Assembly: GCA_947453445.1 (NCBI GenBank)
Contig: CANGGP010000030.1
Coordinates: 1 to 38,543 of the forward strand
DNA: 38,543 nucleotides
Source of the DNA: Sphingobacteriaceae bacterium
Lineage (GTDB): Bacteria; Bacteroidota; Bacteroidia; B-17B0; Aurantibacillaceae
Reading direction: 5' to 3'
A program made the position numbers and the translations under genes. Below the pieces are notes generated by a model. It was not told the origin of the DNA, made no database searches, and saw only the letters and a program-made list of their open reading frames with translations. Within the stretch, counting starts at the first letter, position 1, and every line of letters starts with the position of its first letter. Of this stretch, positions 7,080-9,877 are shown one piece after another.

Positions 7080-7080
7080 A

Positions 7081-7447
7081 GTGCAAGTTTTCTACCGCTT
7101 TTAATTTATTTAAAAGAGGAAAGTCCGGGCAACACAGGGCAACCTGCCACTTGAAAGGGTGGGTACAATTGCAGGAATGCAGATGTAACAGAAAGTGCCA
7201 CAGAAAACAAGGTAGCCTCCAACTTGTTGGGGGTGATAGTGAAAACGTGAGGTAAGAGCTCACGGGTATTTTTAGTAATAGAAATACAGGGTAAACCTCA
7301 GGTGTTGAAAGACCAAATAGGTTGCGATAATAGGCGGCCCGTCTTATCTTCGAAAGAAGAGTCGCAACGGGTAGGTCGCATAGATAAATGGTAGATATAC
7401 CCCCGACTTTGTTGGGGATGAAACAGAACCCGGCTTACAAACTTGCA
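7081..7447 (+). ncRNA. rnpB: RNase P RNA (class A, catalytic RNA)
   Basis: The RNA subunit of RNase P matures tRNA 5' ends. The conserved 5' core GAGGAAAGTCCGGGC is at 7116-7130 and the 3' core ACAGAACCCGGCTTAC at 7423-7438; these form helix P4 and the conserved region around it. The ends close as helix P1: GCAAGTTT (7083-7090) pairs with AAACTTGC (7439-7446). Between them lie the AGGGCAACCTGCCACTTG-type region and the GAAACAGGGTAAACC-like segment, as expected. The length of about 365 bases is normal. Ends are inferred from P1 pairing and could be off by a few bases. The flanks 6934-7080 and 7448-7507 hold no gene that I can support. Confidence 0.95.
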
Positions 7448-7507
7448 AGATTAAATTAAGGTTTTAAGGCTTCATTCGGTTGAATCATCATCCTTTCATC
7501 AAGCCAA

Positions 7508-8083
7508 TCAGGTAATTCTGGTTAAGATTGCAATGATCAATAAAATAATGGCCAATGCGGCGCATAAATATGCCAACATGATGAATGTTGAGTCAAAAAA
7601 GCCTAAAAGGTAAAAAACAGCGGCTACAATTAGAAGCAAAAATGCCAGCTTTCGCAATACTTTGCGAATTACTCTTTTTACGATGGATTGCTTTTCAATT
7701 TTTTGTTTTGAAATCGAATGTCCAACTTGCAACTTACTGTTTGACGAAAAAATTTTTAATGTATTGATGTTGTGTTTGAGGGCTATTTGACTTGAGATGA
7801 ATGCAATCACCTTTTCTTTTACCGGCTTTAGCTTATTTTCTACTTTAGATTCAACAGGCTTGGCTACTTCCTTTAAAACAATCACATTAACAGGCTCTTC
7901 AGCATTGCTAAACTTTTGTTTCTGCGCTTTTAAAGGCGTTTCAGATTCTAATTTATTTGATTTTTGTTGATGGTTCGAGGCAAAATAAAAGCCTTTGTTG
8001 TATCTTCTTTTTTGCAAAGAAAATTTTGTACCACAAGAAAATAAAATGGCACTTAATAATAGAAGCGAAATAATTTTTTTCAT
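7508..8083 (-). CDS. Lipoprotein with QKRRYNKGF motif and two C-terminal TM helices (paralog 1)
   Basis: I do not recognise a function. The 191-residue protein has a lipoprotein signal with lipobox LFSC (C17), then the basic motif QKRRYNKGF at about residues 24-32, shared with the next gene upstream. A polar, Lys/Glu-rich linker follows (about 35-140), ending in a basic stretch (KRVIRKVLRK). Two hydrophobic helices close the protein (about 146-162 and 167-188). Similar short motifs directly after the lipid Cys are, from memory, common in unannotated Bacteroidota lipoproteins. If the Cys is lipidated, both ends sit in membrane, so a link between membranes or an inner-membrane loop is possible. 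It is the last gene of the run after its paralog (42-base gap) and converges on rnpB. Confidence 0.75.
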   Translation of the reverse strand: MKKIISLLLLSAILFSCGTKFSLQKRRYNKGFYFASNHQQKSNKLESETPLKAQKQKFSNAEEPVNVIVLKEVAKPVESKVENKLKPVKEKVIAFISSQIALKHNINTLKIFSSNSKLQVGHSISKQKIEKQSIVKRVIRKVLRKLAFLLLIVAAVFYLLGFFDSTFIMLAYLCAALAIILLIIAILTRIT

Positions 8084-8125
8084 GTTCTTCAGAATTAAGC
8101 GAATTTATAAAATTTCAACGACATC

Positions 8126-8719
8126 TCATTCAACTTGGTTCATGCTATTCATGATTACAAAAAACAGAGCCGATAACAAGGCACTTACCAGAGCAAACAA
8201 CAAATATGCACTTGCTGATGTGCTTAAATATAAGATAAAGTAACCAATGCCTGCAACGGCAAAAAAACCTGCTAAAACACAAACCAACACAAAAAGTGCT
8301 GTACCCGGAATATTATTTTCCTTGTCGGGCTGTTGTTTACGCCTTGAAGAAAAAACACGCTTGTATGTTTTTATTTTATGCAATTGAATCATTGTATGCT
8401 TTCTTTTCAAAAAAGCTGCTGTGTATACTTTTTTTTCAGGAAATGATTGAATAGCATAAGATGCATTTTCAGTTATTTTATTGTTTGCATTTAATTTATC
8501 ATTGATTTTTGTTTCGTTTTCCTTGTTAAAATGATCAAGCACCAATTTATTATCACTTGTGTTTTGGTTTTTTGTTTTTGTTGTTGTTGTTGCTGTTGTG
8601 TTTTGTTTATGAAAAACAGCCCAGTGAAAACCTTTGTTATATCTGCGTTTCTGCACATTTATTTTGGTTGCACAAGCAGAAAAAACAATCAGTAAGCACA
8701 AACAAATGAATGATTTCAT
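8126..8719 (-). CDS. Lipoprotein with QKRRYNKGF motif and two C-terminal TM helices (paralog 2)
   Basis: Function unknown. The 197-residue protein is a diverged paralog of the downstream gene: lipobox FSAC (C16), then QKRRYNKGF at about 23-31, then a Thr/Asn/Lys-rich linker with low complexity (TTATTTTKTK at about residues 41-50), a basic stretch before the membrane region, and two hydrophobic segments (about 140-160 and 168-190). The lipid signal, motif and C-terminal helix pair are kept, while the linker is not alignable by eye. It starts 9 bases after the stop of the 2-epimerase gene, so it is probably co-transcribed with it. Confidence 0.75.
   Translation of the reverse strand: MKSFICLCLLIVFSACATKINVQKRRYNKGFHWAVFHKQNTTATTTTKTKNQNTSDNKLVLDHFNKENETKINDKLNANNKITENASYAIQSFPEKKVYTAAFLKRKHTMIQLHKIKTYKRVFSSRRKQQPDKENNIPGTALFVLVCVLAGFFAVAGIGYFILYLSTSASAYLLFALVSALLSALFFVIMNSMNQVE
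8578..8598. repeat. TTG trinucleotide repeat inside the lipoprotein linker
   Basis: Five TTG units followed by CTG and TTG on the plus strand encode the Thr-rich linker of the minus-strand lipoprotein. Length changes would be in frame and would only lengthen or shorten the linker. Confidence 0.7.
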
Positions 8720-8728
8720 GCAATAATA

Positions 8729-9877
8729 TTAGCGAATGTGATGAATAATTTCTTGACAAATAAACTCGGAGGCCTTACCATCACCATACAAAGCAGGAAA
8801 TTTCAAATCCTTTTTGTGAAACAAAACATTAAAGGCTTCTTTAATTCGTGTTTCGTCGGCATCAACTACTATTGCAGTGCCACATTCAACCAGTTCTACC
8901 CATTCCGTTTCAGGACGTAAGATCACACAAGCCTTTTCGAAATAAAATGCTTCTTTCTGAACGCCGCCGCTATCGGTCATTACCAAGCAACAATTTTTTT
9001 CAAGGGCAATCATTTCCAAAAAAGTTGCGGGTTCCGTCATTTTAAAATGCGGATTCGCTTTCACTGCGGCTAAATTAGCCGGACTAAGATTTTGATCGAG
9101 TAATTTTGCGGTTCGCGGGTGCAATGGCAAAACAACATCCAAATTATTTTGAATTGAAATATCGTTTAAACTTTTAAAGAGGCTGTTTAACCGATCAGGC
9201 TCATCGGTATTATGATTGCGGTGAATGGTTGCAAGGATGAACTTGTTTGTTTGTACATTTAATTTTTGTAAAACATTGGTTTTTTGTTCAGCCACTTCGC
9301 TAAAAAATAAACTGTTATCGTACATCACATCGCCACTGTGATATATTTTGGCGTTGTTGGCGGTATAAGGACCCTGATTATTGTTCTTAAAACCTTCATT
9401 TAATAAATTTTGAAAGCCTGTGCTTGTTGGTGAAAACAACAAGGTGCTCACATGATCACACATAATTCGGTTGATTTCTTCAGGCATCGATTTATTAAAT
9501 GAACGCAAGCCAGCTTCTATATGAATGACAGGTAAGTTTAGTTTTGAAGCCGCAATGGCGCCCGCAAGGGTTGAATTGGTGTCGCCATATAAAACAATGG
9601 CATTCGGCTTTTCATCAAAAATTATCTTTTCGATGCCCACAATCATGGCTGCAGTTTGACTTCCGTGTGATCCTGAACCAATGTTTAAATTATAGTTGGG
9701 AGCAGGAATCCCCAATTCTTCAAAAAACACCTGACTCATATTGGCATCATAATGTTGGCCGGTATGCACGATGATTTCTTGAATTTGATTTGAAAAATTT
9801 TTATGAATGGCACGACTAAAAGCTGCAGCTTTTATAATTTGCGGTCGTGCCCCAATAACAGTGATGAGCTTAATCAT
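8729..9877 (-). CDS. wecB: Non-hydrolysing UDP-GlcNAc 2-epimerase family
   Basis: The 382-residue protein belongs to the non-hydrolysing UDP-HexNAc 2-epimerases, which interconvert UDP-GlcNAc and UDP-ManNAc or act on related diacetamido uronic acids. Seen motifs: VIGARPQIIKAAAF (8-20), HTGQHYD, YGDTNSTLAGAIAA, HIEAGLRSFNKSMPEEINR, and a C-terminal TDSGGVQKEAF with ETEWVELVECG. The TDSGGVQKEAF/ETEWVE form also occurs in WbpI-like 2-epimerases, so the exact substrate is open, and the symbol should be read as family level. It sits in a minus-strand run between the RadC gene (15-base gap) and the paired lipoproteins (9-base gap). It could feed the polysaccharide locus starting near 15 kb. Confidence 0.88.
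   Translation of the reverse strand: MIKLITVIGARPQIIKAAAFSRAIHKNFSNQIQEIIVHTGQHYDANMSQVFFEELGIPAPNYNLNIGSGSHGSQTAAMIVGIEKIIFDEKPNAIVLYGDTNSTLAGAIAASKLNLPVIHIEAGLRSFNKSMPEEINRIMCDHVSTLLFSPTSTGFQNLLNEGFKNNNQGPYTANNAKIYHSGDVMYDNSLFFSEVAEQKTNVLQKLNVQTNKFILATIHRNHNTDEPDRLNSLFKSLNDISIQNNLDVVLPLHPRTAKLLDQNLSPANLAAVKANPHFKMTEPATFLEMIALEKNCCLVMTDSGGVQKEAFYFEKACVILRPETEWVELVECGTAIVVDADETRIKEAFNVLFHKKDLKFPALYGDGKASEFICQEIIHHIR

Follow-up and report, generated by a model that had tools for sequence, protein, structure and literature searches.

A lipobox-and-motif cassette preceding varied two-helix modules in predicted lipoproteins of Bacteroidota

A tandem pair of predicted lipoproteins

The window, that is, the whole 38,543-nucleotide stretch of a Sphingobacteriaceae bacterium analysed here (contig CANGGP010000030.1), carries two adjacent genes for predicted lipoproteins between a UDP-GlcNAc 2-epimerase gene and an RNase P RNA. 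The features are, from upstream to downstream of the pair:

8729..9877, minus strand: UDP-GlcNAc 2-epimerase gene (PF02350), 9 nt upstream of gene 1
8126..8719, minus strand: gene 1, predicted lipoprotein of 197 aa (signal peptide, lipobox, motif, linker and C-terminal hairpin)
8627..8653, minus strand: gene 1 motif QKRRYNKGF, residues 23-31, present in the family alignments; Cys16 codon at 8672-8674
8246..8296, minus strand: gene 1 hydrophobic segment 1, core residues 142-158, by hydropathy
8153..8203, minus strand: gene 1 hydrophobic segment 2, core residues 173-189, by hydropathy
7508..8083, minus strand: gene 2, predicted lipoprotein of 191 aa with the architecture of gene 1, 42 nt downstream of it
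7988..8014, minus strand: gene 2 motif QKRRYNKGF, residues 24-32, present in the family alignments; Cys17 codon at 8033-8035
7598..7648, minus strand: gene 2 hydrophobic segment 1, core residues 146-162, by hydropathy and AlphaFold2
7532..7582, minus strand: gene 2 hydrophobic segment 2, core residues 168-184, by hydropathy and AlphaFold2
7080-7453, plus strand: RNase P RNA, bacterial class A (202.7 bits), directly downstream of gene 2 and convergent with it

An earlier note on this DNA had described tandem lipobox genes with a common QKRRYNKGF and two C-terminal helices, and this is what we found on the minus strand. The lipoboxes read FSA before C16 in gene 1 and LFS before C17 in gene 2, and in both proteins the motif starts 7 residues past the Cys. 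By hydropathy, the C-terminal segments begin 126 and 157 residues past the Cys in gene 1, and 129 and 151 in gene 2. Where they align, the two proteins share 29% identity. In an AlphaFold2 model of gene 2, residues 127-160 and 168-190 are helical, mostly at pLDDT above 70, and most of the linker falls below 50. In the same model two-residue beta bridges at 27-28 and 31-32 (pLDDT of about 60) flank N29-K30, which weakly suggests a beta-turn in the motif.

The epimerase gene, which has a RadC gene directly upstream, is perhaps co-transcribed with gene 1; an epimerase gene next to a member of the family described below was found at one further locus, L300. Neither window gene scored above the Pfam cut-off for Pmp3 (PF01679), DUF5670 (PF18919) or DUF4190 (PF13828), no Pfam or NCBIfam model exceeded its cut-off on either hairpin, and glycine-zipper models were absent from the Pfam tables of both genes. 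We rejected the assignment of the hairpins to one known C-terminal family, taking the weak DUF2207_C and TctB hits as hydrophobic-composition matches. A phage match was also sought for gene 1 and none was found, and a phage origin was rejected.

Spread of the cassette and its co-occurrence with the hairpin

We defined the family by K-R-x-Y-x-x-G-[YF] within about 20 residues past the Cys. A profile of the N-terminus returned eight members in the genome of origin at E<=2.3e-12 (the window pair, a tandem triplet on contig 14 and single genes on contigs 7, 44 and 49), and the gap to the following match, at 0.031, means that the pattern is not due to chance. For wider searches we used a motif profile, A2, of 21 positions around the motif, with columns that exclude the lipobox; its seed of 59 rows had been picked using a lipobox filter, and all 59 are among the 169 members analysed below. 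A2 replaced a first broad profile, A1, which included the signal peptide and was scored on 18 candidates per genome: A1 gave many phylum matches at E 1e-3 to 1e-2, most of them spanning only about positions 1-30, i.e. signal peptides.

The motif profile matched one to eight places per genome in all 40 genomes of the genus (E<=0.01), and it matched 65 of 87 genomes and nine of ten genera in the order, so that conservation of the motif extends beyond the window pair. In a draw of 395 genomes from the phylum, two besides the genome of origin (G055 and G102) gave matches at E<1e-5, and 12 more genomes, with matches between 0.01 and 0.1, were taken as noise; one additional member outside the order, L034 (from G051), came from the first search for relatives. 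Scanning GTDB contigs with the pattern KR[KHR]YxKG[YF][YH][VFI] yielded 157 stretches and 60 confirmed relatives, 59 assigned to Bacteroidota and one to an unplaced 'bacterium'; all 60 records are metagenome-assembled, and single outliers could hence be misbinned. Among the members scanned, no Pfam or NCBIfam model describing the cassette was found, only weak single-member matches to LPAM_1 (a general lipid-attachment model), TraV, PYST-B and others. A literature search, judged by titles and abstract openings and with subscription journals mostly uncovered, gave no description of it either. The cassette family is apparently large, bacterial and undescribed.

A lipobox, as recognised by a permissive regular expression, is present in 166 of 169 distinct motif-profile members, and the Cys follows D or K in the remaining three. 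The motif usually starts 4-14 residues past the Cys, the commonest spacings being 4 (60 members) and 8 (53), and the few larger spacings and one of 1 may reflect a misassigned Cys. At the other end of the protein, at least two C-terminal hydrophobic segments were found in 156 of the 160 complete members (those not cut by a contig end), with one segment in two members and none in another two. Of the 158 members with any segment, the last hydrophobic core stops no more than 10 residues short of the C-terminus in 152 and no more than 20 short of it in the other six. Conservation within the motif is high (K in 153 of 158, R in 151, Y in 152, G in 153 and [YF] in 153), and across 51 aligned short-class proteins the sole invariant columns are C, K, R, Y, K and G. 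As a control set we took 1297 distinct non-member neighbour proteins of at least 120 aa from the same genus loci: the permissive lipobox test accepts 200, a terminal hairpin follows a soluble stretch in three, and one has both. This single protein carries a motif variant, KKRVYQRGYYADW, and is therefore a missed member, so motif and architecture co-occur almost completely. The composite architecture proposed in the earlier note is not accidental.

The two complete members without any hydrophobic segment do carry the cassette. L217 6892-7137 (minus strand) encodes 82 aa with a lipobox and KKRYSKGF that end in linker, perhaps a broken copy. L152 7998-9221 (plus strand) has a lipobox and KRRYLKGYYV, and its C-terminal part looks beta-rich by eye; this part gave no Pfam match and one solved-structure match at E 0.8, a beta-barrel being suspected by eye. 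From L152, the cassette could also serve other cargo.

C-terminal modules, linkers and genomic setting

The two C-terminal helices are present throughout as the earlier note had them, but they do not form one family. We grouped the C-terminal segments of 158 members into 26 clusters (70, 32, 21, 4, 4, 3, 3, 3 and 18 singletons; the count depends on single linkage at phmmer E<1e-4), many of them modules without mutual sequence match, and gene 1 and gene 2 each form a singleton. Some member hairpins do pass the Pfam cut-off, for Pmp3 (1.1e-14, the contig 49 paralog), DUF5670 (best 2.7e-10) and DUF4190 (best 2.8e-13, L154). Among 51 homologs at E<=1e-3, Pmp3 accounts for 9, DUF5670 for 7 and lmo0937 (NF033488) for 7. 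The L013 protein matches DUF4190 at 3.3e-10, and the 'DUF4190-like' cluster also takes in Pfam-unmatched proteins, for instance the contig 14 copy scanned. By eye, the hairpin of L327 6905-7516 (plus strand) resembles a TM2 domain (PF05154).

An extra beta-rich domain between cassette and hairpin was detected with a regular expression in 39 members, 38 of them DUF4190-like. It measures about 70 residues, occurs both inside long-class members and in neighbouring proteins, and the two such neighbours scanned had no Pfam match at E<=0.001. In L308 1102-1752 (minus strand), L305 409-1326 (plus strand) and L154 8001-8777 it ends, by eye, in a conserved Y-x-N-G. The AlphaFold2 model of L154, a long-class protein, had a mean pLDDT of 50 and was rejected as input for a fold search. 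A comparison of profile A5 with solved structures returned two designed helical repeats at E of about 0.002 and three weaker matches, not taken as homology.

For comparison we took 30 Pmp3 proteins, out of 198 phylum genomes drawn, and 30 TM2 proteins, out of 148, a set biased to high Pfam scores. None of these 60 proteins has the motif, and the single flagged lipobox sits in a zinc ribbon; the N-terminus of L367, also in this set, resembles a signal and lacks the motif. Lower in the Pmp3 phylum table stand two cassette members, the contig 49 protein of the genome of origin and the G102 protein of L338. Since Pmp3 and TM2 modules elsewhere in the phylum, unlike those of the members, come with neither motif nor credible lipobox, the lipobox goes with the motif and not with the module. 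Judged from the sequences, one predicted lipid-plus-motif cassette is joined to many different two-helix modules.

The earlier note held that the motif alone is constrained. It is indeed the part most conserved among members with differing C-termini, so that a constraint on the motif can fairly be drawn; it probably also has a binding role. The word 'alone' goes too far, for the modules are conserved within subfamilies (Pmp3-, DUF5670- and DUF4190-like) and the length from Cys to helix is steady within classes. Nor is the cassette freely shuffled, because N-terminal subtype is tied to C-terminal class: the Cys-to-motif spacing is 5 or less in 60 of 70 DUF4190-like members and in none of the 32 Pmp3-like ones.

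The linker is predicted to be disordered; K (14.6%), S, N and T are abundant in it among the 117 members that lack the beta domain. Its net charge is positive in every group (means of +5.2 to +6.3, with +4.6 in DUF4190-like members). The distance from Cys to helix 1 has a median of 125 residues in Pmp3-like, 129 in DUF5670-like, 129 in other, 167 in DUF4190-like and 174 in beta-domain members; with one member per cluster it ranges from 103 to 176, with a median of 128 (24 clusters). This length varies little within classes, and the near-constancy may come from common descent with few indels. An ASA-like element, a pattern picked after the sequences were inspected, occurs in 17 of 32 Pmp3-like linkers against 2.9 expected from shuffles, in 15 of the 17 at 34-42 residues before helix 1; DUF4190-like members have an excess of it too, at other distances (18 of 70, against 3.0 expected).

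Gene calls in the neighbourhoods were crude picks of ORFs of at least 80 aa. With them, 71 of 146 member instances are preceded on their own strand by an ORF at less than 60 nt, and 30 adjoin another member. In 21 of 28 loci, one cut copy counted, the Pmp3-like member follows an EEP-family gene (PF03372, assigned from one scanned representative), and this fixed place looks like vertical inheritance. At such loci (L210, L245, L254, L260 and others), the block by eye also includes genes for methionine aminopeptidase, phosphoglycerate mutase and an ECF sigma factor. Long-class members often sit beside DUF1761 or beta-domain protein genes, and no neighbour common to all member types was seen among called ORFs of at least 80 aa.

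On contig 14, copies 1 and 2 of the triplet (L209 6076-6239 and 6894-7055) have a common tract of 166 columns with 92.8% identity. It begins about 56 nt before the ATG, takes in the signal peptide and stops at codon 36, two codons beyond the motif. Outside it, identity in gapped alignment falls to 33-56% in downstream windows and 47-64% upstream. The four differences within the first 36 codons are all protein-silent. The simplest reading of these sequences would be gene conversion of the 5' cassette. As a general rule it was rejected, the sharply bounded tract being confined to this pair: of six other pairs, the one in G004 is a near full-length duplicate and the rest have short stretches (18-108 nt) at 84-94%. 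For within-genome pairs, mean ungapped 5' DNA identity is 0.64 at the same locus and 0.45 at different loci.

Polymorphic antagonism proteins, in which a common N-terminal cassette delivers variable membrane-active C-termini, would likewise show C-termini that vary, copies in tandem and an exchanged 5' cassette, the last seen here in one pair. This explanation is very improbable: the Pmp3-like type keeps one chromosomal place in those 21 of 28 loci and so looks housekeeping, no recurrent partner stands beside all types among ORFs of at least 80 aa, and gene 1 lacks a phage match.

Placing the two ends in the envelope

By their lipoboxes and signal peptides, members are predicted to be exported and lipidated. 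Their hairpin probably sits in the inner membrane, because helix hydropathy has group means of 2.5-3.15, while SlyB of E. coli K-12 reaches a maximum of 1.46. SlyB is an outer-membrane lipoprotein, also by its annotation in E. coli, with a two-helix glycine zipper segment. It forms ring-shaped transmembrane complexes (PMC13067283), and comparison of the sequences shows that it is, like the members, a small protein in which a lipobox precedes a hydrophobic and probably two-helix segment. This equal order of the first parts would fit a SlyB-like arrangement, with lipid and hairpin both in the outer membrane and oligomerising around partner proteins. We consider it rather improbable, since the hairpins of members are far more hydrophobic, no glycine-zipper family turned up when members were scanned with Pfam, and the hairpins are extreme C-terminal, whereas the less hydrophobic segment of SlyB is internal, is followed by a soluble stretch and comes without a KRxYxxG motif. 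The positive-inside rule gives no clear support for an orientation of the hairpin, except for the DUF4190-like loop, because the inter-helix loop and the 20 residues preceding helix 1 are equally basic.

The combination of lipid and helices, which the earlier note had called an odd topology, is less odd than that. Inner-membrane helices occur in the lipoproteins CyoA and SpoIIIJ, and SlyB too combines a lipid with helices, in the outer membrane. As generally described, CyoA and SpoIIIJ are like the members in having a lipid anchor plus membrane helices, and unlike them in being an enzyme subunit or an insertase with folded domains. What is new here is a common address on many modules, lipoproteins with helices being already known. 

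These examples bring in the main rival to the reading that we favour below, a double inner-membrane anchor. The two topologies named in the earlier note, both ends in the inner membrane or a span from it to the outer one, are thus still the foremost candidates. Both ends would pin a periplasmic loop to the inner membrane, where the motif would bind an inner-membrane or periplasmic partner, and the lipid would stay in place because, as proposed, the helices block extraction by Lol. The hydrophobicity of the helices equals that of typical inner-membrane segments, CyoA and the SpoIIIJ/YidC type are inner-membrane lipoproteins with helices, and Pmp3 and TM2 modules elsewhere in the phylum occur cassette-free (0 of 60 with the motif). 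CyoA itself is inserted by YidC and SecYEG (PMC9360617). We nevertheless hold the double anchor as possible and next in likelihood after the tether: by itself it leaves unexplained the similar distance from Cys to helix across unmatched modules, and why a two-helix protein also needs a lipid.

For the N-terminus, the known signal to compare is the lipoprotein export signal (LES) of Bacteroidota, K-(D/E)2 or Q-A-(D/E)2 (PMC5080379), which resembles the cassette motif in being a short signal past the lipidated Cys. K-(D/E)2, Q-A-(D/E)2 and paired acidic residues just past the Cys were found in none of 158 members (in about 12 rows the Cys is perhaps placed too far upstream), and the motif of the members is instead basic and aromatic and lies further in. 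As no LES was seen in the 158, the N-terminus is probably not on the cell surface. The lipid may go to the outer membrane: LolA and LolB are conserved in Bacteroidota (PMC11885536), and disordered linkers play a part in efficient Lol transport in E. coli (PMC12846838).

The same transport machinery suggests another role for the motif, that of a sorting signal, a tag that engages or avoids Lol in place of a docking site at the destination. Such a tag would be partly compatible with either a tether or a double anchor, and the motif, usually 4-14 residues past the Cys, lies near the stretch of the substrate that meets LolE. We think it unlikely, since in E. coli the contact between lipoproteins and the LolE cleft is structurally conserved and sequence-independent (PMC12846838), and since the motif is concentrated in one order and scattered elsewhere, while Lol is general.

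With LolA and LolB conserved and linkers having a role in Lol transport, we tentatively deem likeliest a tether from inner to outer membrane with a common docking motif. The strongly hydrophobic hairpin would be left in the inner membrane via a Sec/YidC route, lipid and motif would be at the outer membrane, and the flexible periplasmic tether would fix the position of its hairpin module within the envelope. On this reading, gene 1 and gene 2 would encode two tethers with different inner-membrane modules and one common docking address. Against a tether stands the basic linker (net charge of about +5), which would be periplasmic, and against its reach the greater length of the DUF4190-like class (median 167). 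We found no precedent in the literature available to us for an inner-membrane hairpin whose lipid is moved to the outer membrane.

Parts of this arrangement have counterparts in known lipoproteins. Pal ends in a folded peptidoglycan-binding domain, and is in this and in having no membrane hairpin unlike the members. It is like them in its disordered stretch past the lipid, the length of which matters (PMC12826056). The linker of the E. coli lipoprotein YbjP runs along its outer-membrane partner TolC (PMC13082787), so that, compared by description, a near-lipid linker contacts an outer-membrane partner as in the proposed docking; YbjP differs in having a globular domain, and its available description mentions no membrane hairpin (PMC13082787).

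Put together, the lipid and a KRxYxxG[YF] turn would form a dedicated envelope address, recognised by one outer-membrane or periplasmic receptor, and the members would be a new class of tether with interchangeable inner-membrane hairpins. This address would have been put before modules such as Pmp3, DUF5670 and DUF4190, and 5' gene conversion would have carried it from one tandem copy to another at least once. Taken whole, this proposal is possible, and we advance it with less confidence than the tether itself.

The family gives a common definition to one to eight uncharacterised proteins per genome in 40 genomes of the genus, and ties several widespread, poorly known membrane modules to one envelope arrangement. 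Its short motif past the lipobox is as conserved as one would expect of a sorting or docking signal, and lipoprotein targeting in the phylum is only partly understood. If the tether is true, these proteins would represent a new way of joining inner and outer membranes.
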